A stretch of 64,000 nt of DNA from Kordia algicida OT-1 (lineage in GTDB: Bacteria > Bacteroidota > Bacteroidia > Flavobacteriales > Flavobacteriaceae), in assembly GCF_000154725.1 (NCBI RefSeq), contig NZ_DS544873.1, positions 1,092,758-1,156,757 of the forward strand, given 5' to 3'. Under the pieces are notes generated by a model. It saw only the letters and a program-made list of their open reading frames with translations. It had not been told where the DNA came from and did no database searches. Both the position numbers and the translations under genes were made by a program. Below are positions 25,710 through 58,591 of this stretch, one piece after another. How positions within the stretch are numbered: position 1 is the stretch's first letter; each line of letters starts with the position of its first letter.

Positions 25710-25978
25710 TGGGTTGATTTCTAATTACTTTTCAAAGAAAAATCAAAATAGCTTCTGATAAAACCAACAATGAGTAAACAGGCATTTTTAATGAGTGAAC
25801 TTATGAGTTTATTAGTTGATGAGTTTATTAGTTTATTAGTTGCTTTCAAAGAATAATTCAGCATCTAACATTCGACATTTAAAATTCATAAGAAGTTTAT
25901 GAGTTGATGAGTTTAATAGTTTAGTCTTTGAAACTATAAGCAGAGTAAATAGCTTAACCAGCAACCAGCAACCAGCAA
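25710..25978. repeat. Degenerate tandem repeats between two minus-strand genes
   Basis: Contains imperfect heptads built on TTATTAG and ATGAGTT (about 25796-25845 and 25889-25923), and three copies of AACCAGC at 25956-25976 directly against the stop codon of the VIT/vWA gene (TAG, 25979-25981). No gene. See the heptamer finding. Confidence 0.6.
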
Positions 25979-28900
25979 CTAAAACCGCAATTTCGCCACA
26001 ATCGTCTGATCTTTAGACTTCGTTAATCGAATGACTTTTACTTGTTTGGTTTCCTGTATGGTTCCGTAATCTGTGTACAAAGTCACTTTCATAAATGTAG
26101 GATTCTCAATTTTTTGATACCGATCGCCAAAGTATTTAATCTTCACAAAATAATCGCCTTTTATGGCTTTTTTTAGGGTAAATTCTTCTGGTCCAAAACC
26201 TTGCGTCATATCTTGCGAAATTTCTCCACCAATTTTTGTTTTGCTGTGTTTGTAATAACATTCTTCATAATTCGGATCGATCACGTGTAAATCTATGTCC
26301 GTATCATTATGATTCCAATCGACCACAATACGAACATCATATGTTTCTGGTGTAATGACTTTTGTATCGAGTTTACTCGTATCCAAATCCGTTTTGTATT
26401 TCTCTAATAAATGATTGATTTCATTCTTTACAATTTTATTCAATCCAGAAAATTTACGACGACGTGTTCCTTCATATATGTCGCCCGATACTACACGTTC
26501 TAACAAGTCAAAAGCTTCCTGACATTCTCCCAAATTTTCATGCGCCAACGCCAAATCACGATATGATTGCACATCTTCAGGACGCAATTCCAACACACGT
26601 TTCAATATAAATAAAGCAAGCTGATGCTGATTTGTTGCCTGTAATTGGTACGCATATACTTTCAATAATTCGTAATTGTCAAAATCGGTTTCTGTAATGT
26701 TTGATAAAATACGATCTGAATGTTTGAAAGCTTCAAATTCGTCACGGAAAAAATTAGATACATCTACATAATACGCAGGAACTTCCAAATAGCTTTCGCG
26801 TTGCAACAAGTAAAAATCATACGCTTCAAAAACAGTTTTAAACTTTCGTAATTCTTCAATATATGGCTCAGAAACTGTCTGATCTGCCACTTTTAAAGTT
26901 CCGTATGTCTTTAAATTTTGAGCTCTAGAATTTCTTATAGTATTGTTGTTTGTTGATGAATTTGTAGAAGTTTCTGTAACTACATTTCCATCTGCATTTA
27001 CTCTAAATATAATCGGTAATGTATAACGAATGCTTACATTTTTATGACGTTGTTTAGCGGGAATCATCTGTGGTAACAAGTTTAACACACGAATAACTTC
27101 TTCTGCCACTCGTGGATGCGGAGCTCTAGTTCGTATGTTTTTGATATTTCCTTCTTCGTCGATGATAAAAAGTGCATATGCTCGTTGTATTCCTGCGGAT
27201 AAATTTAACTGACTTACCGCAGCTATATTAAAATTATCAGCGATATGTTTTTGCATCTTTTTGGCAAAACATTTTTTTCGTTCTGCCAAATCGCGAAATG
27301 CTTCACAACCTGGAAATATTGGAGATTCTTCAATCATAACAAATGGAATATCTTCAATAGGTTCTTCTTCCTCTGTAATTTCTACATCATCAACTTCTTC
27401 CAAAACGTCAATTTCCTGAATATTTACGGGTGAAGGTTGACTGTAACCAAACGTACTTGAATTCACAAAACCATTGCCGATATTCTCTGTAACTATGAGA
27501 CGTTCACTAATTTTTGAATCTTCTTCAACAACTTGAATACGATCAACAATAGGAATTGTTTCACCGTTTTTCAATTGCTTATTTCTACGTTCTTTTTCAG
27601 CAATAATCTTGTTGTATTCATTGAGTAATTCTGCTGGTGGCTTGATGTTATAGCGAATATAATCGCGTACTTCTTCCAAAACAATCAATGAAGTATAATC
27701 GGTTACCAAACCATATTTTGTTGCCAAATTAACAATTTCAGCTTTGTTAACTTTTGAATTTTCTTGTAAATAAGCCAATCGTTTTTGTGCCCACATACGA
27801 GGAATATTTCCTGCATCTTTTTGTGCTTTAGATAAATTTAATTCAACACGTTCCGTGATTACATTATCGTATCCGAAATACAAAATGATACTTTCTTCGG
27901 AATTTAAATTTTTTCCCGCAATCGAAAAGGTATTGCCAACATTGGTAAATCTATTTGGATAAATGTCTATATTTTTTGAATACGATTTAAAACCTAAGTA
28001 TTGATATTGCTGATATTTGATTGCTGAAAATGCTTCCGTGGCACTCTTTGAAGTCAAATTGATATACGTTCCTTTTGAAGCTTCTGCCATTTTTTTCAAC
28101 GCAGGATGATTTGATTTTTTCAAACTATTAAAAACGATCAATGGAGTATCGGAATAATAATTGAAATTACTCAACGACTGAATTCCATCTGAAAAGAAAA
28201 ATACCAAATCGGAGTTTTTAAATTCAGTATTCAACACATTATAATTGGTTGCTCCATCATAAATAGTAGCTTCTAATTCACTTTTTAAAGTGCTCCAATT
28301 TCCATTACGAATGTCAAACGTTTTTCTTGATAATACAGTGTTGCTAAAGGTTTTTAGATGAACTTTTACATTCTTTACATGAGAAAAATACGTAGCTAAT
28401 AATTCAATTTCTTTCTTTAAATCTCGATCTTTCATGGAAAGCGAAGCGTCCCAAAACATCGTGATTTCTGTTGCTTTTTTTCGAAGTTTCTTTTGTGGAT
28501 TTAAGATCAAATGTGAATAGAAATAATCGTCTGAAACGACTACTTTTTTAGCACCAACTTTCGTCGGAATTTTTATGAGCAAACTCGTATTCGGAATGTA
28601 ATTTTGCTTTTCTAATTTCGTTCTAAAGTTTCGTTGCCAATCTTGAAAATTCAATCCAGAAACTTTTCCTTTTTCAATAACAGGTTTGGTATCTTGTTCA
28701 AAAACAGTAATAGTAAGTTTGAAGGTATCGAGTTTGTTTTTAAAATTTAGTGGCAAATCGAAATAATAACCATCTTTTTTATAAAGTAACTCTTGTTCGT
28801 ATGCTAGCACAACGCGTTTATAACCTTTTTGCGGAATAGGGTAGATGCGCGCTTTGTAATTATTTCCTGTGCCTTTTTCTAACAACGCAGGATCAACTCT

Positions 28901-29230
28901 ACGGCGAACGACTTCTTCAAAGGCAATTCGTCCAAGTTCTTTATCAACCACAACGGCTTCACGAAGTTTTCCGTTCACATCCAATGCAAAGCGAGATACA
29001 TTACAATTTTCTCCTAGCGGAAAAGACAATTCTCCTTCCAACACTTGATTTGTCGGATTGTAATACAACATATCAAAAGTTGTGGTGGTTTTATTGCCAA
29101 TAATTTCTACGGTAATATCTAAAGAAGACAGACCAACTTGGGTTTTTCCTGCTTTTAAAACAGGCGGTTCTTGCGCTGAACTAATTGCGGTACACAATAA
29201 TAACAGCACGAATGATACAAATGTTTTCAT
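25979..29230 (-). CDS. VIT/vWA/TonB-C/TPR/DUF2135 mosaic protein
   Basis: A 1083-residue exported protein (signal MKTFVSFVLLLLCTAISSAQ). Domains in order: VIT (about 25-145, LGRIAFEEVVRRRVDPALLE, YKARIYPIP), von Willebrand A (about 245-400) with the metal-site motif DASLSMKDRD, a TonB C-terminal-like domain at about 650-755 (IFPGCEAFRDLAERKKCFAKK, ALFIIDEEGNIKNIRTR), a TPR-like helical stretch at about 860-950 (RPEDVQSYRDLALAHENLG), and a C-terminal DUF2135 domain (DWNHNDTDIDLHVIDP, GPEEFTLKKA). It probably works as a periplasmic or surface adhesion/assembly scaffold. Substrates are unknown. Confidence 0.85.
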   Translation of the reverse strand: MKTFVSFVLLLLCTAISSAQEPPVLKAGKTQVGLSSLDITVEIIGNKTTTTFDMLYYNPTNQVLEGELSFPLGENCNVSRFALDVNGKLREAVVVDKELGRIAFEEVVRRRVDPALLEKGTGNNYKARIYPIPQKGYKRVVLAYEQELLYKKDGYYFDLPLNFKNKLDTFKLTITVFEQDTKPVIEKGKVSGLNFQDWQRNFRTKLEKQNYIPNTSLLIKIPTKVGAKKVVVSDDYFYSHLILNPQKKLRKKATEITMFWDASLSMKDRDLKKEIELLATYFSHVKNVKVHLKTFSNTVLSRKTFDIRNGNWSTLKSELEATIYDGATNYNVLNTEFKNSDLVFFFSDGIQSLSNFNYYSDTPLIVFNSLKKSNHPALKKMAEASKGTYINLTSKSATEAFSAIKYQQYQYLGFKSYSKNIDIYPNRFTNVGNTFSIAGKNLNSEESIILYFGYDNVITERVELNLSKAQKDAGNIPRMWAQKRLAYLQENSKVNKAEIVNLATKYGLVTDYTSLIVLEEVRDYIRYNIKPPAELLNEYNKIIAEKERRNKQLKNGETIPIVDRIQVVEEDSKISERLIVTENIGNGFVNSSTFGYSQPSPVNIQEIDVLEEVDDVEITEEEEPIEDIPFVMIEESPIFPGCEAFRDLAERKKCFAKKMQKHIADNFNIAAVSQLNLSAGIQRAYALFIIDEEGNIKNIRTRAPHPRVAEEVIRVLNLLPQMIPAKQRHKNVSIRYTLPIIFRVNADGNVVTETSTNSSTNNNTIRNSRAQNLKTYGTLKVADQTVSEPYIEELRKFKTVFEAYDFYLLQRESYLEVPAYYVDVSNFFRDEFEAFKHSDRILSNITETDFDNYELLKVYAYQLQATNQHQLALFILKRVLELRPEDVQSYRDLALAHENLGECQEAFDLLERVVSGDIYEGTRRRKFSGLNKIVKNEINHLLEKYKTDLDTSKLDTKVITPETYDVRIVVDWNHNDTDIDLHVIDPNYEECYYKHSKTKIGGEISQDMTQGFGPEEFTLKKAIKGDYFVKIKYFGDRYQKIENPTFMKVTLYTDYGTIQETKQVKVIRLTKSKDQTIVAKLRF

Positions 29231-29416
29231 AAAATCGGTTTTGAGACTAAAGTTTGGAGTCTATACGATCAATATTCATACCATTTTAAGAAAATTTTAA
29301 GAATTAGGTGTTAGTTTGGTTCTAAGTACCATTAGAAATTAAAAAAAAACAAATTAGAAGTTTACGAGTTAAAAAAGTTTATATTTTGATGTAGAAAATA
29401 GCATATACAATTTATC

Positions 29417-29444
29417 AAGACCTAAGACCCAAGACCCAAAAACC
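29417..29444. repeat. Heptanucleotide tract at the esterase 3' end
   Basis: Four in-phase 7-mers: AAGACCT, AAGACCC, AAGACCC, AAAAACC. The last unit's final C is the first base of the esterase stop codon (29444-29446 on the minus strand). Confidence 0.65.
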
Positions 29445-30310
29445 TAATGATGTTCCCCAATAAAAGCCTGTAGTTTATTCCACGTGTCAATTGCATTCTG
29501 ACCTGTCCATCCGTGACCTTCTTGCGGATAAAAGGTAAATTGATGCGTTACGCCCAATTGTGTCAAGCGATCACTTAAATCCATTCCTTGTGAATTTGGA
29601 ATCAACGGATCTTGTCCGCCATAAAATAATATAGTTGGCGGCGCGGATGCGGTAACTTTATTCAGTGGACTGTAGTTTTCTAAAAACGGAATTACAACAT
29701 TTGCACCCAACAAATCAATATATGCTTGAATAGCAGGATCGACGTTATTCAAATAGGCTTCATCAGCCAAATTTGTAGGTCCAACAATACTTGCTACCAT
29801 ATTCACATTGGCTTGCGTATCATAATCGTAACTCCACAAAAGCGATAAATGTGCACCTGCACTTGTGCCAAGAAAAGCATAATCTTCAGAAATGATATAT
29901 TCTTCATTTCTAGCTCTCAAATCGGTAATAATTGAAGTAATATCATTCAATTGCATCGGAAAAGGAGATGTTGTTTCGTTAGCCAATCTGTAATTAATAT
30001 TTACAATGGCATATTCGGGTAAATCTGCTAGAATCAGTTCAACAAACTCGTTCATATCAGCTTTGTCGCCACTTGTCCAACCGCCACCATGTACCAAAAT
30101 AATCACTTTGGTAGATAAGGTTCTGTTTGGCGGTAAATAAATATCATACACTTGGTCAGTTTCAGCACCATACGAAACATCTAAAATGGTTCGCGCAGCA
30201 ATCGTTTCTTCTGCCGGATTTGAAACAAAACTAACATCTGAATCAGAACTACACGCATAATTCAACAAGATAAACAAACTTAAAATACCGATGTAGAATG
30301 ATTTTTTCAT
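29444..30310 (-). CDS. Alpha/beta hydrolase (esterase/lipase), lipoprotein
   Basis: A 288-residue lipoprotein (lipobox LLNYAC, Cys20) with a carboxylesterase fold of the BD-FAE/hormone-sensitive-lipase type. The oxyanion motif HGGGWTSGDK lies at about residue 74, the nucleophile motif GTSAGAH at about 149, the acid in GGQDPLIPNSQ and the catalytic His in EGHGWTGQ near the end. It likely hydrolyses short esters in the periplasm or on the surface. The gene stands alone and is divergent from the YrdC-type gene. Confidence 0.88.
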   Translation of the reverse strand: MKKSFYIGILSLFILLNYACSSDSDVSFVSNPAEETIAARTILDVSYGAETDQVYDIYLPPNRTLSTKVIILVHGGGWTSGDKADMNEFVELILADLPEYAIVNINYRLANETTSPFPMQLNDITSIITDLRARNEEYIISEDYAFLGTSAGAHLSLLWSYDYDTQANVNMVASIVGPTNLADEAYLNNVDPAIQAYIDLLGANVVIPFLENYSPLNKVTASAPPTILFYGGQDPLIPNSQGMDLSDRLTQLGVTHQFTFYPQEGHGWTGQNAIDTWNKLQAFIGEHH

Positions 30311-30543
30311 AAAAAAGAATTAATTACAATACAAAACGCAATATCCTAAAAAAAAGTATACGAAAGTCTTAATGTTGACTTAAAATTAATACACTATTTA
30401 AATTGTTAAAGTCATCTTAAAATCAGTAATTTAGGTTGATTTTTAACCAGAATTTTTAATTCAGGAATAGAGATTGCATACCAATTATACATTATTGCTA
30501 AAAATGAATTACTTTTGTGTAATTGAAGTTTGTAAACAAACGT

Positions 30544-31167
30544 ATGGCTGAATTTATCAAATTATATAACGAAAATCCGAATCCGAAGGAAATCAAAAAA
30601 GTTGTGGATATTCTTCGCGATGGTGGTTTAGTGATTTATCCTACAGATACTGTATATGGTTTGGGTTGCGATATCACTAATACAAAAGCCTTGGAGCGAA
30701 TTGCCAGAATAAAAGGGATTAAGCTTGAAAAAGCCAATTTCTCCTTTATCTGTAATGATTTAAGCCATATTAGCGATTACATTCGTCAGATTGATACACC
30801 AACGTATAAAATCTTAAAAAAAGCATTGCCAGGTCCGTATACGTTTATTTTACCTGGAAATAACAATCTACCAAAAGTATTTAAAAAGAAAAAAACAGTC
30901 GGAATTCGTGTGCCAGACAACAATATTGCACGAACTATTGTGCAAGAATTAGGCAATCCGATTGTATCAACTTCTATTTATGATGAAGATGATATTATAG
31001 AATATACAACTGATCCTGAGTTGATTTTGGAAAAATGGGAAAACCTTGTAGACGCAGTAGTTGATGGCGGTTATGGAGACAATGTCGCTTCTACAATTAT
31101 TGATTTATCAGGCTATGAACCAGAGGTAATTCGTGAAGGAAAAGGTGATATTGATATCATTCTTTAA
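30544..31167 (+). CDS. L-threonylcarbamoyladenylate synthase (Sua5/YciO/YrdC)
   Basis: A 207-residue YrdC-domain protein. The family makes threonylcarbamoyl-AMP from threonine, bicarbonate and ATP for t6A tRNA modification. Motifs: GGLVIYPTDTVYGLGCDI, KANFSFICNDL, LPGPYTFILPG, VGIRVPDNNIA, NPIVSTSIYDEDD. I use ATG 30544; the upstream TTG 30523 adds seven residues. The first-strand pattern (KIIRDGGLVIYPTDT) and KANFSF place it closer to the YciO branch, so t6A synthesis is likely but not certain. It is followed 25 bp later by mltG. Confidence 0.88.
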   Translation: MAEFIKLYNENPNPKEIKKVVDILRDGGLVIYPTDTVYGLGCDITNTKALERIARIKGIKLEKANFSFICNDLSHISDYIRQIDTPTYKILKKALPGPYTFILPGNNNLPKVFKKKKTVGIRVPDNNIARTIVQELGNPIVSTSIYDEDDIIEYTTDPELILEKWENLVDAVVDGGYGDNVASTIIDLSGYEPEVIREGKGDIDIIL

Positions 31168-31192
31168 AATTGATTAGTACAGCGTAACATTT

Positions 31193-32236: not shown

Positions 32237-33687
32237 TGGCAAATTACAATCGTAGAGACTTTGCAAAGTTAGTTATCTTAGGCGGAATTGGTTACACGAT
32301 TTTTTCTTGCGTAGATGATCCAAAAAAAGACAAAACCGCGAAAGAAGTAGAAGAAACGGCGCCAAAAATGCCTGAATTACTTCCAGAAAATATAAAAATC
32401 TTCCAAAAAGCAGATGAGGAATATCAAGATTTAACCATTCGTTTCAACAAAAGAATTCAACAAGCTCCAACGTTTATTGCACAATGTTTCAATACGAAAG
32501 GTGTTGTGGATGCAATATTATTTGCCAAGTTTAAAGACTTAAAAGTTGTGGTAAAAAGTGGCGGACATAGCTTTGAAGGTTTTTCCAATACAAATGATGG
32601 TTTGGTAATTGATGTTTCTGCCATGAAAAAAATGCAGTGGAACGACGATCATAGTGTAACGGTTGAAACTGGTTGTATCTTAAAAGAATTATACGACGAA
32701 ATGTTGCCAAAACAACGCATTTTACCTTCAGGTTCGTGCGCAACTGTCGGAATTGCTGGTTTAACACTCGGTGGCGGATACGGTTTTTTCAGTCGAAAAT
32801 ATGGTTTGACGTGTGATAGTTTGCAAGAAATCACGATGGTAGATGGCAACGGAAACATTCATCACGAAAGTGGAAACTCCGCCATACTAAAAGCTTGTAA
32901 AGGCGGCGGAAATGGGAACTTCGGAATTGTCACAAAAATGAAATTCCGAACGTATCAAGCACCAAAATTCTTTCAAACATATCGTTGCAAAGCTTATAAA
33001 TTAACCACAGAAAGAGCCAAATCTTTATTAAAAATGTGGTTTCAATACACCAAAAAATTGCCAAATACAGCATTTTCTGCTTTTGTATTGAACGGAAAAA
33101 CATTGACGATTCTCATTACAAATTATGCAACTGATAATAAAGGTGTTATGAAAATGTACAATGCTTTAAAAGCAGTTTCTGACAAAGCAACTATAGGAAG
33201 CAAACGACCGTTACAAAAAGCGTTGAAAACATTTTATGGCGTACAGCATCCTATCTATTTTAAAAACGCTTGCGCGGGATTGTACAAGGATTATACTGAA
33301 ATTGAAGGTTGCATGGACGATGTAATTTCAAAAGTCATTTCGTCTCGCGGTTTGATTTACCAAGTGAATACGCTTGGCGGAAATATTAATTCTTCTTCGG
33401 CTGAAAAAAGATCGGTTTTTCCACACAGAAGCTATCCGTATTTATCAGAATTGCAATCGTATTGGGACAAACCTTCGCAGGAAGCCAGCCGATTGAAAGC
33501 ATTTCAGGAAGTTCAAGATCGTTTTTACAAACACGGAATTCGTGCGCATTACCGCAATTATCCTGATATCAATTTTAAAGATTTTGAAACTTCGTATTAC
33601 GGAAAATATTTGCCTGAATTAAAAGCAATTAAACAACAACTTGATCCTGAAAATCGCATTCAGCATCCGCAGAGTATTTCTGTTTAG
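32236..33687 (+). CDS. FAD-binding oxidoreductase of the BBE (berberine-bridge) family
   Basis: A 483-residue flavoprotein. The PCMH-type FAD-binding domain has VVKSGGHSFEGFSNTNDG (the conserved His that often binds FAD covalently) and GGGYGFFSRKYGLTCDS. The C-terminal BBE motif is degenerate (RAHYRNYPDINF with YYGKYLPELKAIKQQLDPENR). The N-terminus MANYNRRDFAKLVILGG looks like a Tat signal (Arg-Arg-Asp-Phe), followed by a lipobox-like IFSC, so a Tat-exported lipoprotein is likely. The gene starts on the last base of mltG. Substrate unknown; carbohydrate oxidation is common in the family. Confidence 0.85.
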   Translation: MANYNRRDFAKLVILGGIGYTIFSCVDDPKKDKTAKEVEETAPKMPELLPENIKIFQKADEEYQDLTIRFNKRIQQAPTFIAQCFNTKGVVDAILFAKFKDLKVVVKSGGHSFEGFSNTNDGLVIDVSAMKKMQWNDDHSVTVETGCILKELYDEMLPKQRILPSGSCATVGIAGLTLGGGYGFFSRKYGLTCDSLQEITMVDGNGNIHHESGNSAILKACKGGGNGNFGIVTKMKFRTYQAPKFFQTYRCKAYKLTTERAKSLLKMWFQYTKKLPNTAFSAFVLNGKTLTILITNYATDNKGVMKMYNALKAVSDKATIGSKRPLQKALKTFYGVQHPIYFKNACAGLYKDYTEIEGCMDDVISKVISSRGLIYQVNTLGGNINSSSAEKRSVFPHRSYPYLSELQSYWDKPSQEASRLKAFQEVQDRFYKHGIRAHYRNYPDINFKDFETSYYGKYLPELKAIKQQLDPENRIQHPQSISV

Positions 33688-33725
33688 GTTCGCTTATGCT
33701 CTTAGACTCGGCTTTGCCTTTTAGT

Positions 33726-33784
33726 ATCGCTTCGCTTTTGGATCGCTTCGCTTTTGGATCGCTTCGCTTTTGGATCGCTTCGCG
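33726..33784. repeat. 16-bp tandem repeat after the oxidoreductase gene
   Basis: Three exact copies of ATCGCTTCGCTTTTGG (starts 33726, 33742, 33758) plus a partial fourth (33774-33784). The unit contains CGCTTCGC-type short palindromic words also seen in the other intergenic repeats of this window, as after holA. Confidence 0.85.
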
Positions 33785-33905
33785 AAGGTTCTTAGAATAC
33801 TTTAATACCTTAACATTTCCAAGTGTCACTTTGAGTGCCGAATCTGCGATTTGGTGTATCGAGAAGTACTTTGAAATTAGATTGGTTTTGTTTCGCTTTG
33901 CTCAC

Positions 33906-34765
33906 AATTCAAGGATTAAAATATTCAATAATTCAAGGTTGTTTCCGAGATCATTATTAGATTTTATATAAAATGCTAAATGCGTTTCAAAGACAAATTT
34001 GAGTGTTGTTTGAAACTAATTGATACATTTTCAAATTTTCAAATTGTTACATTAAAATTTAAGTATCGCTGTCGCTCAAAGTATATTCGTATTTTAGTTT
34101 GAATTTCCAATTACTTTTGGAACTTGACTAATACCTAATACCTAATACCTAAAAGCTAATGCCTATTTTTTCGCTACGCTGAATTCAAAGATTAAAATAT
34201 TCAATAATTCAAGGCTGTTTCCGAGATCATTATTAGATTTTATATAAAATGCTAAATGCGTTTCTATGACAAACTTGAGTATTATTTGAAACTAATTGAT
34301 ATATTTTTCAAATTTTCAAATTGCCACATTAATAACGTTTATAAAATTTAAGTATCGCTGTCGCTCAAAGTATATTCGTATTTTAGTTTGAATTTCCAAT
34401 TACTTTTAGAACTTGCCTAATGCCTATTTTTTCGCTACGCTCAATTCAAGGATTAAAATATTCAATAATTCAAGGCTGTTTCCGAGATCATTATTAGATT
34501 TTATATAAAATGCTAAATGCGTTTCAAAGACAAACTTGAGTGTTGTTTGAAACTAATTGATACATTTTCAAATTTTCAAATTGCCACATTAATAACGTTT
34601 ATAGAATTTTGGTATCGCTGTCGCTAATAGTATGTTCATATTTTAGTTTGAATTTCCAATTACTTTTAGAACTTGACTAATACCTAATTCCCAAAAGCTA
34701 ATGCCTATTTTTTCGTTACGCTCAATTCAAGGATTAAAATATTCAATAATTCAAGGTTTTATTCG
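33906..34765. repeat. Tandem array of 260-280-bp intergenic repeats
   Basis: Three imperfect full copies start at 33906, 34182 and 34443 and a fourth, partial one at 34724. Each copy begins AATTCAAGGATTAAAATATT, runs through CAAGGCTGTTTCCGAGATC, TGCTAAATGCGTTTC, GAAACTAATTGATACAT, TATCGCTGTCGCTCAAAG and TAGTTTGAATTTCCAATTAC, and ends in heptads such as CTAATACCTAATACC. There is no coding frame of note. It lies between convergent genes. Relatives occur at 38560-39045 and fragments near 50910. Confidence 0.85.
34128..34162. repeat. Heptanucleotide tract inside the long repeat
   Basis: CTAATAC three times, then CTAAAAG and CTAATGC, all in 7-bp phase. The other copies of the long repeat carry shorter or altered versions of this tract. 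Confidence 0.7.
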
Positions 34766-36911: not shown

Positions 36912-36939
36912 ATTGAAATTTTAAAATATTATAGTTAAC

Positions 36940-36981
36940 AACACACAACACACAACACACAACTCACAACTCACAACTCAT
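36940..36981. repeat. Heptanucleotide tract overlapping the HsdR-N gene 3' end
   Basis: Six in-phase units: AACACAC three times, AACTCAC twice, then AACTCAT. The stop codon of the minus-strand gene (36971-36973) lies inside a unit, and its last Glu-Leu codons are part of the repeat. Confidence 0.75.
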
Positions 36982-37417
36982 AATCTGGTATCTCTCTCAA
37001 AAAATGATATTGCTGTGCTTCATAATCCATTGTGCAATAATAATGATTCATTCCGTTGGTCACCATTAAATATTCTGCATCCAAAATCATGTTATAACGT
37101 GCAATCTGGTCAAATGTCTGTTGATTGATCGTAATCGTACTGCGTTTACATTCTACTACCAAAAAAATACTTCCGTCAGAGTTAAAAATAACAATATCAT
37201 ATCGTTTCTTTAAGTTGTTGAAAATGAGTTCTTTCTCAACGTTAATCAAGCTGATTGGATAGTTTTTTTCTTGAAGTAGAAATTGCACCGTATGTTGCCG
37301 AACCCATTCTTCTGGAGTTAAGACTACAAACTTTTTCCGGATGGCATCAAAAATATAGATTTTATTTTCCCTATTTTTGAAGCGGAACGAATATTTTGGA
37401 AAATTTAAGAGTTCCAT
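36971..37417 (-). CDS. HsdR N-terminal domain (PD-(D/E)xK nuclease-like) protein
   Basis: A 148-residue stand-alone copy of the type I restriction HsdR N-terminal nuclease-like domain. It contains RYDIVIFNSDGSIFLVVECKRS, matching the Asp...Glu-x-Lys metal-binding core, then QIARYNMILDAEYLMVTNGMNHY. No hsdM, hsdS or helicase is near it. Such single-domain proteins are widespread in Bacteroidetes next to holA and may be a conserved housekeeping nuclease. It is divergent from holA. The last codons are made from a heptamer repeat. Confidence 0.85.
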   Translation of the reverse strand: MELLNFPKYSFRFKNRENKIYIFDAIRKKFVVLTPEEWVRQHTVQFLLQEKNYPISLINVEKELIFNNLKKRYDIVIFNSDGSIFLVVECKRSTITINQQTFDQIARYNMILDAEYLMVTNGMNHYYCTMDYEAQQYHFLREIPDYEL

Positions 37418-37476: not shown

Positions 37477-38481
37477 ATGGAAGAAGCTAAACAAATTGTC
37501 GTTGATATACAGCAAGGAAATATTAAACCTATTTATTTTTTAATGGGTGAAGAAGCCTATTATATTGACAAAATTGCAGAATATATTGAAGAAAAAGTCT
37601 TGGCGGAAGAAGAAAAAGGCTTTAACCAAATGGTGTTGTACGGACGCGATGTGACGGTTGATGATATTGTGGCAAATGCAAAACGCTATCCGATGATGGC
37701 AGAACGCCAAGTGGTTATTGTAAAAGAAGCACAAGACTTATCGCGCACGATTGATAAATTGGTCAGTTATATTGAAAATCCACAACCAACAACGGTTTTA
37801 GTAATTTGCTATAAATACAAAAAGATTGCGAAGAATAAGAAATTGTACAAAGTCACTAAGAAAAATGGTGTGATGTATGAAAGCAAGAAATTGTATGAAA
37901 ATCAGGTGGCAGATTGGATTCGTAGAGTTTTAGCAGGAAAAAAATATAAAATCACGCCGAAAGCTGCACAAATGCTGGTAGAATTTTTAGGAACGAATTT
38001 GAGTAAGATTGATAACGAACTGGAAAAACTAAAGTTAATTCTACCTATTGGAAGTGAAATTACACCAGAAGCTATTGAAGAAAATATCGGAATTAGCAAA
38101 GATTACAACAATTTTGAGTTGCGAAAAGCTATTGGCGATCGTGATGTGAAAAAAGCGTTCCGAATTATCACTTATTTTTCCGAGAACCCAAAGGACAATC
38201 CGACAGTTGTGACGGTTTCGTTGTTGTTTAATTTCTTTTCTCAATTATTACAATATCATGGTTTGCGCGATCAGAATCCAAAGAATGTAGCTTCTGTGTT
38301 GCGAATCAATCCGTATTTTGTAAAGGAATATCAAGCCGCAGCGCGCAATTATCCGATGAAAAAAGTAAGCGGAATTGTGGCAACACTACGCGAAATGGAC
38401 GTAAAGAGTAAAGGAGTTGGCGCTAGTAATTTATCAAATGGAGATTTACTGAAAGAGTTATTGGTGCGAATTATGAATTAG
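37477..38481 (+). CDS. holA: DNA polymerase III subunit delta
   Basis: The clamp-loader subunit that opens the beta clamp. The 334-residue product fits HolA in length and content: IKPIYFLMGEEAYYIDKIAEYI, MMAERQVVIVKEAQDLSR, LVICYKYKKIAKNKKLYK, and the C-terminal YPMKKVSGIVATLREMDVKSKGVG with GDLLKELLVRIM. Start ATG 37477. It is followed by a repeat-rich non-coding region. DnaN, the partner clamp, is also in this window at 50951. Confidence 0.93.
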   Translation: MEEAKQIVVDIQQGNIKPIYFLMGEEAYYIDKIAEYIEEKVLAEEEKGFNQMVLYGRDVTVDDIVANAKRYPMMAERQVVIVKEAQDLSRTIDKLVSYIENPQPTTVLVICYKYKKIAKNKKLYKVTKKNGVMYESKKLYENQVADWIRRVLAGKKYKITPKAAQMLVEFLGTNLSKIDNELEKLKLILPIGSEITPEAIEENIGISKDYNNFELRKAIGDRDVKKAFRIITYFSENPKDNPTVVTVSLLFNFFSQLLQYHGLRDQNPKNVASVLRINPYFVKEYQAAARNYPMKKVSGIVATLREMDVKSKGVGASNLSNGDLLKELLVRIMN

Positions 38482-39085
38482 ATCGCTTGCGCTCTTAGAT
38501 ACTAGATCGGCTTCGCCTGTTAGACCGCTATCGCTTTTAGATATTAGATCGCTTCGCTCAATTCAAGGATTTAAAAATTTAATGATTCAGAGTTGTTTCG
38601 ATTTTAGAAACTTTGGGTTTAGACTTGCTACGCTTTTAGACTTGTTTCTGCGTCGCAAAACCTCTTAGAACGCTTTGCTTTTAGAACTTTTCTTAACTTA
38701 CTAAAACTTTTTGAATCGTCATTGCGAACGCAGTGAAGCAATCTGCTTTTTTTTAATCTGTTTCGTACTTTGAAACTAATTGCTACATTTTCAAATTGTT
38801 AAATTAAAATTAAGTATCGCTGTCGCTCAAAGTATATTCGTATTTTAGTTTGAATTTCCAATTACTCTTAGAACTTGACTAATATCTAATTCCCAAAAAC
38901 TAATGCCTATTTTTTCGCTATGCTCAATTCAAGGATTTAAAAATTTAATGATTCAAGGTTGTTTCTAAGACAAACCTGAATATTGTTTGAAACTAATTAA
39001 CACATTTTTAAATTTTCAAATTGCTACATCAATAACATTTTATAAATGTACGATGGATAAAGTGTAAGTGTAGGTACTAAAAAGC
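38482..39085. repeat. Intergenic repeat region after holA
   Basis: First come 16-18-bp phased words (GATCGCTTGCGCTCTTAGA, GGCTTCGCCTGTTAGA, CCGCTATCGCTTTTAGA) to about 38558. Then come two diverged copies of the long repeat, starting at 38560 and 38926 with AATTCAAGGATTTAAAAATT, and parts of a third (TATCGCTGTCGCTCAAAG at about 38814). The first copy is broken after about 40 bp by unrelated sequence. No gene is seen. Confidence 0.75.
38717..38745. repeat. REP-like element with the CGTCATTGCGA core
   Basis: CGTCATTGCGAACGCAGTGA followed by AGCAATCTG resembles short interspersed elements with a TCATTGCGA ... GAAGCAATCT frame known in many bacterial genomes. Only one copy is visible here. Confidence 0.4.
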
Positions 39086-46027: not shown

Positions 46028-46130
46028 ATACTTAAAATTTGTGCAAAAATAGGGAATATGTTTGATTTGATTGAGTTTAGCTAGTAGGTATTTGGTCGCT
46101 TTGCTTTGATAAGCTCAGTTTGAATACTTT

Positions 46131-46221
46131 TGTTATTTGTTATTTGTTATTTGTTATTTCGCTATTCGCTATTCGCTATTCACTATTCACTATTCACTAT
46201 TCGCTATTCGTTATCTGTTAT
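46131..46221. repeat. 13-unit heptanucleotide tract before the yfcC-type gene
   Basis: Thirteen consecutive in-phase 7-mers: TGTTATT four times, TCGCTAT three times, TCACTAT three times, then TCGCTAT, TCGTTAT, CTGTTAT. It lies between the divergent mnmE and yfcC-type genes. Six-frame reading gives only spurious repeats. Confidence 0.85.
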
Positions 46222-46338
46222 TTGGTTTTCCTTTTGCAGAACCAATCGATTTTCCATATTATTTCTCTGAAAAATCAAAAATATTTGAGTTTTTGATTAC
46301 ATTGGACTTTCTTTTATTTTCAAACACAACCAATACTA

Positions 46339-49368: not shown

Positions 49369-49467
49369 GTTAGATTTTAGATCGCTTACGCTGTTAGACG
49401 TGAGACCGCTTTGCTATTAGATTTTTAGACTTACTTAGATTTGTTAGACTAGCTAACAAAAAAACAT

Positions 49468-49938: not shown

Positions 49939-49943
49939 TCGAT

Positions 49944-50843: not shown

Positions 50844-50950
50844 CTATTTTTAATCCTAAATAACTGTAACGGTTTTTTAGGACGGGTCAGAAATACTTTT
50901 GGTGGTTTTGAAAACGACTAATGCCTAATCTCCAAAACCTAATTCCTTTA

Positions 50951-52069: not shown

Positions 52070-52220
52070 GTGTTTGTGTTCTATTTAATGTTCAAAAATA
52101 ATTCTTCCAAGTTAAATTACATAGCTTTTCAGCAGTAAATTCACGTAAAAAGAATCACCTCGTTATATTCTTACAAATATATCTCAAAAGTCTTTGTAAA
52201 GAAAGGAAACTTATTAACAA

Positions 52221-53879: not shown

Positions 53880-53881
53880 AC

Positions 53882-54607
53882 TTATCGTTTTTTTAGTTGT
53901 AATACAGTTAAGAATAAAAAGAAAATGGTCACGCTGAGAAAGTAGATTACGTCTCTTGTATCAATCACACCGCGCGCTATACTATCAAAGTGTCGTTTCA
54001 TGCCTATTTTTTCTACAGAAGTACTGAAGTCTCCAAAAATACCAGCATTTGCAATACCTTCAAATCCAAAATACATGACAAAACAGATAAAAACTGAAAC
54101 TATAAACGCCACAATTTGATTCTGCGAAAGCGTTGATGTAAATATACCAATACTTGTATAGGCGGCAATTAAGAATAACAATCCAAAGTAGGAGCCAAGT
54201 GTGCTACCAACATCGAGATTTCCTTCCGGATTTCCTAAATTCCAAACGGTATATACGTATAAAAGTGTTGGAATCATGGCAAGAAGAATCAGTACAAACG
54301 CGCCAAAGTATTTTCCGAGTACAATTTGCCAACCTGAAATGGGTTTTGTCAATAATAATTCGAGTGTTCCTAAGCGTTTTTCTTCCGAGAAGCTTCGCAT
54401 GGTAATCGCGGGAATTAAAAAGATAAAAATCCACGGAGCTAGCGTGAAAAATGGTGTTAAATCGGCAAATCCGTAATTAAAAATATTGAATTCACTTTTA
54501 AAAAACCATAAGAATAATCCGTTGAGAATTAAAAATAAGGCAATTACCAAATATCCTACGGATGAGGAAAAAAAGGAATTGATTTCTTTACGAAGTATGG
54601 CGAGCAT
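53882..54607 (-). CDS. gldF: Gliding motility ABC transporter permease GldF
   Basis: A 241-residue ABC-2 type permease with six hydrophobic helices (VGYLVIALFLILNGLFLWFF, LAPWIFIFLIPAITM, AFVLILLAMIPTLLYVYTVW). The motif RSFSEEKRLGTLELLLTKPISGWQIVLGKYFG is the ABC-2 coupling region. It pairs with GldG and an ATPase encoded elsewhere. It follows the monooxygenase-like gene after 71 bp. Confidence 0.93.
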   Translation of the reverse strand: MLAILRKEINSFFSSSVGYLVIALFLILNGLFLWFFKSEFNIFNYGFADLTPFFTLAPWIFIFLIPAITMRSFSEEKRLGTLELLLTKPISGWQIVLGKYFGAFVLILLAMIPTLLYVYTVWNLGNPEGNLDVGSTLGSYFGLLFLIAAYTSIGIFTSTLSQNQIVAFIVSVFICFVMYFGFEGIANAGIFGDFSTSVEKIGMKRHFDSIARGVIDTRDVIYFLSVTIFFLFLTVLQLKKR

Positions 54608-54678
54608 TGCGTTCTTTTTTTACAATTGTTTGTGATGCACAGTTCAGTAACGATGCGGAATGGATTCTAGTATTTTTA

Positions 54679-54975
54679 TTAAGATAAACTCACTAATTTA
54701 TCAACACTCCACGCGTACGGTTTGTCGTTAAACATGGCTTTGGTTTGTTTCCAGACGTTTTTAAATAATTCTGAGTTTCTATACGCTTCCAAATCGTCTA
54801 CATGTCTCCAATGACTGTACGTGAAGAAGATTTCAGGATTGTTTTTATCTTGATATAATTCTAAAAACTCACAACCTTCACGGTTTTTAATTGATGCTTT
54901 TTTTTCATCAAACATTGCCAAAAAATCAGGAATGTATTTGGAGTGAAAGCTCATCTTTACTATGCGTACAAACAT
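54679..54975 (-). CDS. ABM-domain (antibiotic biosynthesis monooxygenase-like) protein
   Basis: A 98-residue ferredoxin-like fold protein, VRIVKMSFHSKYIPDFLAMF, NREGCEFLELYQDKNNPEIFFTYSHW, AYRNSELFKNVW. The family includes YgiN-type quinol monooxygenases and heme-degrading enzymes; no cofactor site is certain. It is separated by one base from the SAM hydrolase gene, so the two are co-transcribed. Confidence 0.85.
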   Translation of the reverse strand: MFVRIVKMSFHSKYIPDFLAMFDEKKASIKNREGCEFLELYQDKNNPEIFFTYSHWRHVDDLEAYRNSELFKNVWKQTKAMFNDKPYAWSVDKLVSLS

Positions 54976-54976
54976 A

Positions 54977-55810
54977 TTATATTGAAAAATTAATAGTTAT
55001 CGTATCTCTAAATCGCAATCCGAATAGGCTAGAAGCGCTTCCAACAGTTTGCGGATTACTTTTATATATGGCCAATTCTAAAAAATCAGCCGAATTAAAC
55101 AACGCTAGTTTTTTACCATCTTCTTCACGTTTGTGTTTTTCTAAATTAAAATTGATGGAATCACTATAACGCTCATGAATAGTTTTGAATTTATAATTAC
55201 GAGCAGAAATTTCAAAATTTCGTCCTTTTCCAACGTCTCTAAATATCTTTCTAGTGATGTTAGTTACCACATTTCCGTAATTGTCAATATAAATTACGTT
55301 TCCTATAATCTGCGTTTCATCAGTATTTACTACAGGTTTGATACCAGTTAAATGTTTGATTTCGTGAATAGTTTTCCCAATCACTTCCAAAGTTCCGCCA
55401 CGTGCAATATGGCAGGCAACTTTTACAAAAACGTCTAATACAGGGAAATTGGTCTCAATACGATCGTGAATATTTATTTCTACAATCTTTTCCGGAACGA
55501 TCTCAGAGGCAATCAAGCTCATAATTCCATTATTAGCACAGACAAAAAAATGACCATCTAGCTTTACGGCAATATGTTTGTTTTCGGGATTCAGTTCAGA
55601 ATCGATTCCGATAATATGAATACTACCTTTAGGAAAGCTGTTGAAGGCATTTTGGATAATATACGCAGCTTCTGTAATGCTAAACGGATTCACGCTATGT
55701 GAGATATCAACAATACGAATATCACTCAGTTCACTATAAATAGCTCCTTTAACTGCGCCCACAAAATGGTCTTTCTCCCCAAAATCAGTTGTCAGTGTTA
55801 TTATTGCCAT
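54977..55810 (-). CDS. S-adenosyl-L-methionine hydrolase (adenosine-forming), DUF62 family
   Basis: A 277-residue protein related to SAM-dependent fluorinase and chlorinase, most of which use water and make adenosine plus methionine. The N-terminal TLTTDFGEKDHFVGAVKGAI with DISHSVNPFSITEAAYII and the C-terminal FANNGIMSLIA-like CANNGIMSLI and IYIDNYGNVVTNI match the family. The Asp-Arg-His-type hydroxide site cannot be verified by eye. Co-transcribed with the ABM gene; divergent from phoH. Confidence 0.88.
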   Translation of the reverse strand: MAIITLTTDFGEKDHFVGAVKGAIYSELSDIRIVDISHSVNPFSITEAAYIIQNAFNSFPKGSIHIIGIDSELNPENKHIAVKLDGHFFVCANNGIMSLIASEIVPEKIVEINIHDRIETNFPVLDVFVKVACHIARGGTLEVIGKTIHEIKHLTGIKPVVNTDETQIIGNVIYIDNYGNVVTNITRKIFRDVGKGRNFEISARNYKFKTIHERYSDSINFNLEKHKREEDGKKLALFNSADFLELAIYKSNPQTVGSASSLFGLRFRDTITINFSI

Positions 55811-55917
55811 TGGCGAATTGTTGATATTTTTTTAAAATTAATCTATTTAAAAATGGTAAGTTTGCTATGCAAATCTAAAAAAACAAAACGGAAATCTAAC
55901 CTTAATACGAGTCGCTT

Positions 55918-56871
55918 TTGAACGAAATTATTTTTGAACTTTCTGAGATCAGTCCAAGAGAGTTTTTTGGACACCAAAATACCAACATCGAATTGTTGAA
56001 AAAATACTTCCCAAAACTCAAAATTGTAGCCAGAGGAAATAAGATAAAAGCATACGGAGATGAAGCCTTATTGGAAGAATTTGATAAGCGTTTAACGATG
56101 CTTATGGAACATTTTGCGAAGTACAACAAAATTGATGAAAATGTGATAGAACGTGTGCTTACCAGTGAAAGTTCTAAAGATTATGACACATCTGCTTCAA
56201 GTGGCGAAACGTTAGTGCATGGTCATAATGGGAAATTAATCAAAGCCATTACTGCCAATCAGCGAAAGTTAGTAGAGTTGATGAACAAGAACGATATGGT
56301 GTTTGCTATTGGACCTGCGGGAACAGGAAAAACGTATACGGGAGTTGCATTAGCCGTAAGAGCTTTAAAAAATAAAGAAGTAAGAAGAATCATTTTAACA
56401 CGTCCTGCGGTAGAAGCTGGAGAAAGTTTAGGTTTCTTGCCAGGAGATTTAAAAGAAAAGTTAGATCCGTACATGCAACCGTTGTATGATGCGTTGCGCG
56501 ACATGATTCCGCCAGAAAAATTAGCAAAATATATTGAAGATGGTACCATTCAAATTGCGCCAATGGCGTTTATGCGTGGGCGTACTTTAGATAATGCTTT
56601 TGTAATTTTAGATGAAGCACAAAACACGACACATGCGCAAATGAAGATGTTTTTGACGCGTATGGGGAAAAATGCAAAATTCATGCTTACGGGCGATCCT
56701 GGGCAAATTGACTTGCCTAGACGCGTTATTTCTGGATTAAAAGAAGCGTTGTTAGTTTTAAAAGATATCAAAGGAATTGGAATTATCTATTTGGATGATA
56801 AAGATGTCGTACGACACCGATTGGTAAAGAAAGTGATTGAAGCCTATAAGAGTATTGAGCATCAGAATTGA
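55918..56871 (+). CDS. PhoH family ATPase
   Basis: A 317-residue protein with an N-terminal KH-like part (SPREFFGHQNTNIELLKKYFPKLKIVARG) and a RecA-like ATPase domain with GPAGTGKTY (Walker A) and FVILDEAQNTT (Walker B), then MFLTRMGKNAKFMLTGDPGQIDLP. It is thought to act in RNA metabolism with YbeY or Rnase proteins. The start is TTG 55918-55920; no in-frame ATG lies before the conserved start and the sequence begins MNEIIFELSEISPREFFG as in relatives. Confidence 0.92.
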   Translation: MNEIIFELSEISPREFFGHQNTNIELLKKYFPKLKIVARGNKIKAYGDEALLEEFDKRLTMLMEHFAKYNKIDENVIERVLTSESSKDYDTSASSGETLVHGHNGKLIKAITANQRKLVELMNKNDMVFAIGPAGTGKTYTGVALAVRALKNKEVRRIILTRPAVEAGESLGFLPGDLKEKLDPYMQPLYDALRDMIPPEKLAKYIEDGTIQIAPMAFMRGRTLDNAFVILDEAQNTTHAQMKMFLTRMGKNAKFMLTGDPGQIDLPRRVISGLKEALLVLKDIKGIGIIYLDDKDVVRHRLVKKVIEAYKSIEHQN

Positions 56872-57252
56872 TGGAATTTTAAATTTTAAATGCTAAATGT
56901 TGAATTTTAAATAGTTTCAAAGAACAAATCAACGAATGGTAAATAACGAATCCATAGAAAACGAAAAACAAAAAAGTTATGAGTTGTGAGTTTTCAGTTA
57001 TGAGTTGTGAGTTTTCAGTTATGAGTGAAAATTCGAACGAGCTAAAAAATTTGTGCCAATTGAAGTCACAAAGAGCGTCAAACAAAAATAATTCGTGAAT
57101 TCGTGGTAAAATGTGTCTTAGTGAGAAGCAACAACGAATAACGAATAATGAATAATGAATAATGAAGTTAAAACGTTAACCAAGAATACTAAATTTTAAA
57201 AGAAAAAGTATTTTTAACCCAAAACCCAAAACCCAACAACAACACAACAACA
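56872..57252. repeat. 381-bp intergenic region with three heptamer tracts before purC
   Basis: Contains 56976-57024 (AGTTATG, AGTTGTG, AGTTTTC, repeated as 21-bp triplets, seven units), 57133-57167 (AACGAAT twice, AATGAAT twice, AATGAAG) and 57216-57250 (AACCCAA three times, then CAACAAC and ACAACAA), ending 2 bp before the purC ATG. It also holds the left copy of the purC-flanking direct repeat (57157-57220). No gene. Confidence 0.8.
57157..57220 (+). repeat. Left copy of the 64-bp direct repeat flanking purC
   Basis: GAATAATGAAGTTAAAACGT to AGAAAAAGTATTTTTAACCC. It matches 58407-58470 with only a handful of differences. Each copy then runs into a different heptamer tract. Confidence 0.8.
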
Positions 57253-58200
57253 ATGAGTAACACAATTACGGCTACGAACTTTAATTTTCCGAATCAAACT
57301 GCAAAATACACAGGAAAAGTACGTGAAGTATATACAATTAATGATGATTTGCTGGTTATGATTGCCACAGATCGTTTATCGGCATTTGATGTAGTGATGC
57401 CCAAAGGAATTCCGTTTAAAGGACAAATTCTGAATCAGATTGCCACTAAAATGATGAAAGCAACTGAACATTTGGTGCCAAACTGGCTGATTGCGACACC
57501 AGATCCGAATGTTGCTATTGGTCATATGTGCAAACCTTTTAAAGTAGAAATGGTGATTCGTGGTTATCTTTCTGGTCATGCAGCACGCGAATACAAAGCA
57601 GGAAAACGTAGATTATGTGGTGTAGAAATGCCAGAAGGTATGATTGAAAATGATAAATTTCCTTCGCCAATCATTACGCCAGCAACCAAAGCAGAAATGG
57701 GCGAACACGATGAAGATATTTCTCGTGAGGAAATTTTAGCCAAAGGAATTGTTTCTGAAGAAGATTACGCTCAGTTAGAAAACTATACACGTTTGTTATT
57801 TGAAGAAGGCACAAAAATCGCCAAAGAGCGTGGTTTAATTTTGGTGGATACCAAATACGAATTCGGAAAAACAAAAGATGGAAAAATCGTTTTAATCGAC
57901 GAAATTCACACACCAGATTCTTCTCGTTATTTCTACGCAGATACGTATGAAGAATTACAGAAAAAACAGGAACCACAGAAACAACTCTCAAAAGAATTTG
58001 TTCGTCAATGGCTTATCAATAATGACTTTCAAGGAAAGGAAGGACAAACTGTTCCTTTTATGAGTGACGAATATATCAATTCGGTTTCTGATCGTTATAT
58101 AGAATTATATGAAAATATTACAGGAGAAACTTTTAAAAAAGCTGATGTTTCTAATATTTTGAATCGTATAGAGGAGAATGTAGTTTCTTTCCTAGAATAA
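57253..58200 (+). CDS. purC: Phosphoribosylaminoimidazole-succinocarboxamide synthase
   Basis: SAICAR synthase of de novo purine synthesis, joining aspartate to CAIR with ATP. The 315-residue product is the longer, eukaryote-like form: [99 protein letters not shown]. It is solitary, with a terminator at 58248-58271. It is bracketed by a 64-bp direct repeat. Confidence 0.96.
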
Positions 58201-58247
58201 TAATTTCTGAATAAAAAAACAACTATTATACTGTTTTACAATTGTAT

Positions 58248-58271
58248 AAGCGAACTCAAATGGGTTCGCTT
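58248..58271 (+). terminator. Terminator after purC
   Basis: AAGCGAAC (58248-58255) pairs with GTTCGCTT (58264-58271), followed by TTTTTT. Confidence 0.8.
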
Positions 58272-58355
58272 TTTTTATGACTTTTAAAAATAACCAACGA
58301 ATGGGTTGATGGAAATGCGTTGTATTTTGAAAATTAACTTTATTCTAAACACAAA

Positions 58356-58390
58356 AAAATCGGCATTTTGATGACATAAATGCCGATTTT
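58356..58390. terminator. Second strong hairpin after purC
   Basis: AAAATCGGCATTT and AAATGCCGATTTT form a 13-bp perfect stem with a 9-base loop. With A- and T-runs on both sides it can end transcription from purC and from the convergent protease gene. Confidence 0.8.
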
Positions 58391-58406
58391 TAATTTATAA
58401 AATATA

Positions 58407-58470
58407 GAATAATGAAGTTAAAATGTTAAATCAAGAATACTAAATTTTAAAAGAAAAAGTATTTTAACTC
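58407..58470 (+). repeat. Right copy of the 64-bp direct repeat flanking purC
   Basis: GAATAATGAAGTTAAAATGT to AGAAAAAGTATTTTAACTC, near-identical to 57157-57220, and directly continued by the AACTCAT array. Confidence 0.8.
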
Positions 58471-58591
58471 ATAACTCATAACTCATAACTCATAACTCAT
58501 AACTCATAACTCATAACTCATAACTCATAACTCATAACTCATAACTCATAACTCATAACTCACAACTCATAACTCACAACTCATAACTCAC
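58466..58591. repeat. 18-unit AACTCAT heptamer array
   Basis: Thirteen perfect AACTCAT units followed by AACTCAC alternating with AACTCAT to unit 18. The array ends 2 bp from the stop codon of the metalloprotease gene (TAG, 58594-58596 on the minus strand). The same unit type appears at 36940-36981 and, as its complement, at 56976-57024. Confidence 0.9.

Follow-up and report, generated by a model that had tools for sequence, protein, structure and literature searches.

The tandem heptanucleotides of Calothrix go by the name STRR. Like the arrays considered here they comprise several sequences, the host in that case being a cyanobacterium (cited in Rehm 2015, PMC4692102). The GGGAATC and GGGGA(C/T)T repeats of Xanthomonas and Nostoc (Rehm 2015, PMC4692102) are also heptamers, and lie just past the stop on the coding strand and just before the start on the non-coding strand, with some repeats overlapping the stop; two Xanthomonas carry them mostly at the same gene pairs, with length and sequence varying. 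The TAACTGA direct repeats that MacGregor (2015, PMC4679880) describes in Beggiatoaceae, Cyanobacteria and five Bacteroidetes are likewise heptameric, largely intergenic and near starts, in the main species for the most part directly upstream of them, and Flexibacter litoralis has one reversed array directly past a stop. More generally, 7-bp units dominate among the longer units of prokaryotic long SSRs (Mrazek 2007, via PMC4679880 and PMC4692102), a preference whose cause these two papers, both of 2015, still treat as open.

Heptanucleotide dominance is already in print, as are the gene-end geometry, for the quadruplex-forming repeats of Xanthomonas and Nostoc, and a few Bacteroidetes; the statement in the first-pass annotation of this DNA that it knew of no such description for this group is not borne out. 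The arrays described below look like a less sequence-bound form of the heptamer repeats known in other bacteria. Set against the SSRs of Mrazek (2007), as known through the citing papers, they differ in having 23 unit classes among 44 arrays (own-genome sample plus window), placement at stops and 7-bp module steps, within one family. They share the polar gene-end placement of the Rehm repeats, but whereas the unit there is a quadruplex-capable G-rich motif, here there are many units, and near stops almost none with GGG (2 of 35 stop-array pairs, by eye). Unlike the TAACTGA system, with its single fixed sequence, the present arrays have many sequences and lie more often 3' of stops; TAACTGA itself is absent from the 23 unit classes, which come from about one third of the genome. 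With its numerous arrays differing in sequence, the family uncouples step length from sequence and presents the gene-end geometry without quadruplex-forming units, and the cultivable hosts within it make 7-bp steps and stop placement directly measurable.

Heptad arrays in the 64-kb window

The window (the whole 64-kb stretch of DNA analysed) carries the features below, with arrays as called by TRF. Genes are the longest non-overlapping ORFs of at least 90 aa, called with no gene finder, a rule that leaves start positions uncertain.

25801..25841, no strand assigned: 8-bp array TTATTAGT, 5.1 copies
25956..25979, minus strand: heptad array AACCAGC (coding strand TTGCTGG), 3.4 copies, also by direct reading; extends to the TAG stop of the 1083-aa VIT/DUF2135 gene 25979-29230
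29416..29444 (TRF 29416-29439), minus strand: heptad array CAAGACC, 3.4 copies; 4 bp off the TAG stop of the 288-aa alpha/beta-hydrolase gene 29444-30310
34128..34165, no strand assigned: heptad array CTAATAC, 5.4 copies
36938..36977, minus strand: heptad array ACAACAC/AACTCAC, 5.7 copies; overlaps the TGA stop of the 148-aa HSDR_N gene 36971-37417
46129..46222, no strand assigned: two neighbouring heptad families, TTTGTTA (4.4 copies) and TTCGCTA (8.1 copies); about 100 bp upstream of the mnmE start (46027, minus strand)
56875..56912, plus strand: degenerate heptad array AATTTTA, 5.4 copies (80% matches); begins 3 bp past the stop of the PhoH gene 55918-56871
56975..57026, no strand assigned: 21-bp higher-order array of three heptads (AGTTATG AGTTGTG AGTTTTC), 2.5 copies
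57136..57166, no strand assigned: heptad array GAATAAT, 4.4 copies
57157..57214, no strand assigned: element with 95% identity to 58407..58465
57216..57236, plus strand: heptad array AACCCAA, 3 copies; 16 bp upstream of the start of the SAICAR synthetase gene (57253-58200)
58407..58465, no strand assigned: second copy of the 57157..57214 element, immediately before the TAACTCA array
58465..58595, minus strand: heptad array TAACTCA, 18.7 copies, the longest in the window; extends to the TAG stop of the 872-aa DUF4953/DUF5117 gene 58594-61212

All nine tracts listed in the first-pass annotation do contain 7-bp units, by TRF and direct reading, with some revision of their extent and description. 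The tract given as 57216-57250 is heptad to 57236 only and continues as a CAA-rich run that stops 2 bp short of the SAICAR synthetase ATG; 46131-46221 is heptad in character but consists of two adjoining families; and 56976-57024, read as AGTTRTG, is heptad-based yet better described as a 21-bp unit of three heptads, copies of which match 100%. The copies at 29417-29444 are imperfect. Absent from that list were a tenth heptad array, the degenerate one at 56875-56912, and the 8-bp array at 25801-25841, which shares its intergenic region with the heptad array at 25956. Proximity to a stop or start, claimed for most tracts, applies to five of the nine, or about half: the tracts at 25956, 29417, 36940 and 58466 lie against a stop, and the one at 57216 ends 2 bp before a start.

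The two elements are direct repeats flanking the SAICAR synthetase gene on either side, and a different heptad array follows each. The CTAATAC array sits within one copy of a dispersed intergenic module, copies of which are found at 33888-34756 (261-281 bp spacing) and 38769-38965. One window protein compared with plasmid records gave no match.

Period 7 in the genome and its relatives

The heptad tracts are genuine, above chance and longer than expected for the genome. In the window, offset 7 has 10 exact runs of at least 12 matched bases, where offset 6 has none and offset 8 a single one. Sampling 1.6 Mb of this genome (G+C 0.34) gives 43 exact runs at offset 7, 6 at offset 6 and 5 at offset 8, and TRF finds 36 arrays of 7 bp, 4 of 6 bp and 9 of 8 bp, with 35 of the 36 heptad arrays intergenic and one coding; one first-order Markov imitation of this sample yields no runs at offsets 6-22. 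The constancy of unit length amid differing sequence, first noted in the window, is a preference for period 7 throughout the sample. The density of the window itself (8 TRF heptad arrays in 64 kb versus 35 in 1600 kb) has a binomial P of 2e-4 that is flattered by the window having been selected on account of its arrays. Clustering of arrays in the genome was rejected, as the number of arrays per 20 kb, with a mean of 0.45 and a variance of 0.50, looks Poisson-distributed.

Across 453 kb of intergenic DNA, the excess at offset 7 over distant offsets is 2-fold for 6 matched bases and reaches 143-fold for at least 21. There is no comparable rise with run length at offsets 5 and 6 in this DNA, while offset 8 rises more weakly than 7 and offset 16 has a smaller rise; the multiples 14, 21, 28 and 35 are likewise in excess for runs of at least 10. 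Once the tracts are masked, a small residue is left (z ~6.5 to 8.7 at lags 6-9, 11, 12, 21 and 24) that is not specific to 7, and a hidden 7-bp periodicity in the remaining intergenic DNA was rejected on this ground.

In 80 named loci, nearly all labelled Flavobacteriaceae or genera thereof, TRF finds 40 arrays of 7 bp, none of 6 bp and 2 of 8 bp, and exact runs number 35, 0 and 1 at offsets 7, 6 and 8. The excess of 7-bp units over other lengths, present in the own genome and in these loci, is not seen in 200 kb of the sister species G004, with 7 arrays of 8 bp and 6 of 7 bp and, after stops, offset 8 in 7/113 and offset 7 in 3/113. Because 8-bp arrays are equally common there, 7 is not the sole step. 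Samples of 100 kb from other genera hold two heptad arrays (G024) or none (G031, G035 and G053), so that, at this sample size, the trait does not appear in all genomes.

We infer slippage as the generating process, and consider it probable that the heptanucleotide arrays reflect slippage in 7-bp steps and purging from genes, with a gene-end bias in addition. Slippage or misalignment in DNA synthesis, depending little on local sequence, would create and extend arrays in steps of mostly 7 bp; these would originate in intergenic DNA, often next to or within dispersed intergenic repeats, and change in length by whole units. The unit at a given site would be replaced between sister species via mutation and re-spreading, in line with the different units at orthologous stops, and selection would purge arrays from reading frames, since 7 is not divisible by 3. 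Polymerase contact length, a hypothesis in print that reaches us via citing papers, may be what sets the step at 7.

As predicted by slippage, one of the processes that the first-pass annotation had raised, paralogous copies of one intergenic module in this single genome differ by whole multiples of 7. Seven of nine anchor pairs represent this module, with inter-anchor lengths of 8, 29 (five copies) and 36 bases, all equal to 1 modulo 7; the two further pairs (lengths 0 and 83) are without a tract and were excluded by eye. On the other side stand a second module family (11 anchor pairs), in which multiples of 7 do not come out cleanly, the 8-bp arrays of G004, and the 11 of 40 arrays in the named loci that fall inside ORFs, candidate genes under the crude calling rule.

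Arrays at stops and starts

Of 73 stop-flanked arrays, 31 lie within 5 bp of the stop, as opposed to 5.7 expected, a pile-up that slippage and purging alone would not give. In this genome, therefore, neither of the grounds on which the first-pass annotation would have let its idea go, 7-bp tracts no commoner than those of 6 or 8 bp or the lack of a link to gene ends, is what one finds. Periodicity increases at about the stop codon; the onset is graded, and a sharp onset exactly at the codon was dropped.

The arrays are also polar. With three sets summed, 33 arrays lie no more than 10 bp from a stop, and 28 of them have more G than C on the coding strand; 11 are equally close to a start, and 9 of these have more C than G. 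Arrays of other periods near stops have G>C in 9/15. Because polarity is opposite at starts and stops, replication- or transcription-strand bias was rejected as its single source. Start-side polarity matches the base composition before starts. Stop-side polarity opposes the composition found there, as C (0.151) exceeds G (0.140) in the 50 nt past stops (A 0.375, T 0.334), which also counts against slippage. Gene-end bias, stop adjacency and coding-strand G>C are left unexplained by the slippage account.

Orthologous stops in sister species carry an array, often of another unit, in 15 of 53 cases, as against base rates of 51/832, 2/98 and 3/113 (2-6%); this count omits the array-bearing gene on L038 (2/10 raw), where N bases make its own end not comparable and three ortholog frames were shifted by one base. 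One array-bearing gene has an array at 0/10 sister-species orthologs. Drift of gene ends into arrays fails to account for the 872-aa, 1083-aa and 288-aa proteins, whose end position is shared by the sister species compared; for the 148-aa protein the final residues vary among them. In a control gene, several array-free orthologs have a hairpin-plus-T-run shortly past the stop (by eye).

The stop excess, the polarity and the recurrence at orthologous stops would all be expected of selected gene-end elements, with G/T-rich RNA past the stop (A/C-rich before the start) being functional, whether through a protein with a 7-nt footprint, 3'-end formation or translation. A cold-shock protein would be one such candidate, a link to heptamers proposed by MacGregor (PMC4679880). 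We nevertheless regard such selection, in any of these variants, as unlikely: units are very diverse, with no common motif seen, the start polarity tracks base composition, one gene's array has no counterpart in ten sister-species orthologs, and recurrence may merely mark permissive 3' regions like those with hairpin-plus-T-run. An all-frame stop function was rejected since reversed units contain stop codons at least as often (27/34) as the stop-side units themselves (25/34).

A broader and distinctly speculative reading is that a process of ~7-nt steps builds arrays of arbitrary sequence preferentially outward from the stop codon, so that distant bacteria would share a class of arrays that is polar and anchored at stops. 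The Xanthomonas and Nostoc quadruplex repeats would be one sequence-biased case, and the site would be set by where translation ends (or uncouples from transcription). As for the codon itself, TAA at array-bearing stops shows no shortage in one set (9/14 versus 1006/1430, P 0.57), and in the genus such stops are short of it (8/21 versus 1079/1501, Fisher P 0.002).

Flanks, quadruplexes and chance

Rather than being made in place, arrays could be carried by dispersed intergenic repeats, as part of a small mobile or recombining module. Of 48 array flanks, 26 have matches elsewhere in the genome sample, compared with 98 of 400 random intergenic segments, and among AACTCAC arrays the right flank is common to L088 and L010 and the left flank to L010 and L011. 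However, the other 22 flanks are without a match, similar flanks can adjoin arrays of different units, and orthologous stops carry different units, all of which makes carriage improbable.

G-quadruplex elements, as suggested for the Xanthomonas and Nostoc heptamers, would account for the shared geometry, coding strand past stops and non-coding strand before starts (PMC4692102), but are very hard to credit where nearly all stop-side units are without standard quadruplex G-runs. An artefact of assembly, or chance in DNA so rich in A and T, is next to negligible in spite of the low G+C, given the empty Markov imitation, an excess that is period-specific and exact heptad runs in 18 of the 80 separate named records.

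A seven-base period in Kordia algicida and its relatives

The genome is a single contig of 5.03 Mb, of which the window forms bases 1092758-1156757, and the host is a member of the Flavobacteriaceae; among named sequences, those closest to its SAICAR synthetase carry the label Flavobacteriaceae or one of its genera, with identities reaching 82%. The nine tandem tracts picked out by the first-pass annotation are all 7-bp repeats, some with a corrected description. A ~58-bp element flanks the SAICAR synthetase gene on both sides in direct orientation (window 57157-57214 and 58407-58465), and each copy is followed by a heptad array, the two units being unlike.

The preference for seven is seen by several measures in 80 stretches of 20 kb (1.6 Mb) spread across the same genome. 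With a minimum of 12 matched bases, exact runs number 43 at offset 7, as against 6 at offset 6 and 5 at each of offsets 8 and 9, with 11 at offset 14 and 18 at offset 21; one run of a Markov imitation gave none at offsets 6-22. Of the 7-bp arrays returned by TRF (score at least 40, at least 2.8 copies), 35 are intergenic and 1 is coding, compared with 2 and 2 for 6-bp units and 7 and 2 for 8-bp units; by our own ORF rule ~14% of the sequence is intergenic. In 453 kb of pooled intergenic DNA (80 named loci, this genome and three further sets of relatives), the offset-7 excess is 2-fold when runs of 6 are counted and climbs to 143-fold at run lengths of at least 21. Offsets 5 and 6 show no comparable rise with run length, offset 8 rises more weakly than offset 7, and offset 16 shows a smaller rise. 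When the 832 stop codons of the own-genome sample are given a local periodicity score within the following 60 nt, offsets 5 to 11 have, in turn, 6, 6, 51, 32, 16, 10 and 9 stops scoring at least 8, a spectrum that peaks at 7, tails into 8 and 9 and has little at 5 and 6.

The same period is found in relatives, though not uniformly. The 80 named loci (1.5 Mb, nearly all bearing the label Flavobacteriaceae or one of its genera, a few with broader or doubtful labels) hold 35 exact runs at offset 7, none at offset 6 and 1 at offset 8; 18 of the 80 carry a heptad run of at least 13, and of the arrays that TRF finds, 29 are intergenic and 11 lie in called ORFs. The richest is a Salinimicrobium sediminis locus (L191), with ten exact heptad runs of at least 13 in 19.5 kb. 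Two sister species, G003 and G004, have respectively 2 and 5 intergenic 7-bp arrays per 200 kb, plus 1 each in a called ORF. In the 200 kb of G004 (L311-L320), 8-bp arrays number 7 vs 6 of 7 bp, so that 8 is as common as 7 in this species; possibly its preferred step has shifted. Of three further genomes of the family, each sampled over 100 kb, two lack arrays and the third has 2; none were found in 100 kb of one genome of the same order.

Placement, onset and polarity at gene ends

Arrays crowd against stop codons. Relative to random placement within the same gaps, 10 of 32 stop-flanked arrays in the own-genome sample lie within 5 bp of the stop (2.7 expected), 15 of 40 once the window is added (3.2), 3 of 6 in two sister species (0.4) and 13 of 27 in other genera (2.1). 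All sets together give 31 of 73, with 5.7 expected (binomial P ~7e-16, a value that ignores relatedness). Periods 8-13, 15 and 16 show a weaker stop excess (13 of 61, 4.7 expected). The excess at gene starts is smaller than that at stops, with 4 of 25 arrays in the own genome and window (1.4 expected) and 2 of 24 in other genera (1.7 expected).

The onset was located by matching each base with the base 7 positions on in 35 stop-array pairs no more than 10 bp apart (the L043 array enters twice, with two stops), shuffling between arrays. The three bases of the stop match in 62 of 105 cells (shuffled 45.4; none of 5000 shuffles as high) and the three bases after it in 65 of 105 (shuffled 35.0), while the two codons before it match in 39 of 105 each (shuffled 31.0 and 30.9; P 0.05 and 0.017), a weak excess. 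The onset is therefore graded, the periodicity increasing around the stop codon.

The arrays are also polar. Summed over three array sets, those within 10 bp of stops have, on the coding strand, more G than C in 28 of 33 (C exceeds G in 3) and more T than A in 23 of 33; within 10 bp of starts, C exceeds G in 9 of 11 and A exceeds T in 10 of 11. Arrays of other periods near stops have G over C in 9 of 15. Local base composition agrees with the start-side polarity and opposes the stop-side polarity. A plain replication-strand or transcription-strand bias fails to explain both, since the sign reverses between the two gene ends.

These arrays belong to an already known class of repeat, whose signature in Flavobacteriaceae is strong. 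The abundance of heptanucleotide repeats goes back to a 2007 study by Mrazek, which, as cited in MacGregor 2015 (PMC4679880) and Rehm 2015 (PMC4692102), suggested that 7 nt is the stretch touching the polymerase. Rehm 2015 places Xanthomonas and Nostoc heptamers on the coding strand after stops and the non-coding strand before starts, overlap with the stop included, and reports no regulatory role found for them. This is the gene-end geometry of the Flavobacteriaceae arrays; the Xanthomonas and Nostoc units described there are, however, quadruplex-capable, whereas GGG units occur in only 2 of our 35 stop-array pairs, and the geometry therefore occurs without quadruplex-capable units. The literature searched, whose coverage leaves out most subscription journals, yielded no paper that surveys Flavobacteriaceae for heptad arrays. 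Three features deserve a specialist's attention: the arrays crowd at stop codons, their polarity is opposed between the two ends of a gene, and they recur at orthologous stops with altered units.

Recurrence at orthologous stops

Six array-bearing genes were followed into other species of an 11-genome genus set (the window's own genome included), an array being counted where the score reached 8 or more in the 60 nt past the stop. Units were read by eye:

1083-aa VIT/DUF2135 gene: array in 4 of 7; TTGCTGG in the window, GTTGGCT, TTAGCAT (~30 nt past the stop) and TTAGCCT-like units in sister species
288-aa alpha/beta-hydrolase gene: 4 of 10; GTCTTGG in the window, TAGGTAT, TTTTTTG and GGAATTA in sister species
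148-aa HSDR_N gene: 3 of 10, 2 of the 3 scoring higher at offset 8 or 9
872-aa DUF4953/DUF5117 gene: 1 of 6
gene of sampled stretch L061: 0 of 10
gene of sampled stretch L088: 3 of 10

The total is 15 of 53 (binomial P 4e-7 vs a 6.1% base rate), though recurrences across species are not independent events, because the species share ancestry, and 4 of the 6 genes come from one array-rich window. Base rates are 51/832 in the own genome, 2/98 in G003 and 3/113 in G004, and two control genes, mnmE and one from L075, have no array after the stop in 10 other species each. Four of the 15 recurrences score just 8-9; at a stricter score of at least 10, recurrence is 11 of 53 vs 4.4% of 864 stops in the own genome. 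In two species of the same genus (L235, L237), the region upstream of mnmE has, by eye, CCCAAAA/CCCAACA-like heptads where the window genome has the TTCGCTA type.

Intergenic modules and other repeats after stops

Of 48 array flanks, 26 match other sites in the sample, whereas among random intergenic segments 98 of 400 occur at another site within the sampled 1.66 Mb; arrays are therefore associated with dispersed intergenic repeats. Tandem intergenic modules of ~150-280 bp per unit lie at:

window 33888-34756: three copies plus a partial fourth, spaced 261-281 bp, with further copies elsewhere
L025:18240-19010
L038:10740-11180

Two conserved anchors gave nine matches, of which the 0- and 83-base matches, lacking the tract, were excluded by eye; the remaining 7 are copies of the window's module, and their anchor-to-anchor length is 29 bases in five copies and 8 or 36 in the others, all 1 modulo 7. 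In a second module family, 11 anchor pairs, some nested, have lengths scattered over residues, and of nine copies with a third anchor pair, seven have 36 bases between the anchors and the others 35 and 37.

Longer repeats of CGCTTCGCT-type words, with TTAG or TTGG between, occur at window 33685-33783, 38478-38559 and 49369-49430, each following the stop of a different gene (33687, 38481 and 49368). TTAGAC is 7.7-fold enriched 0-40 nt after stops vs 60-130 nt (39 vs 4 occurrences).
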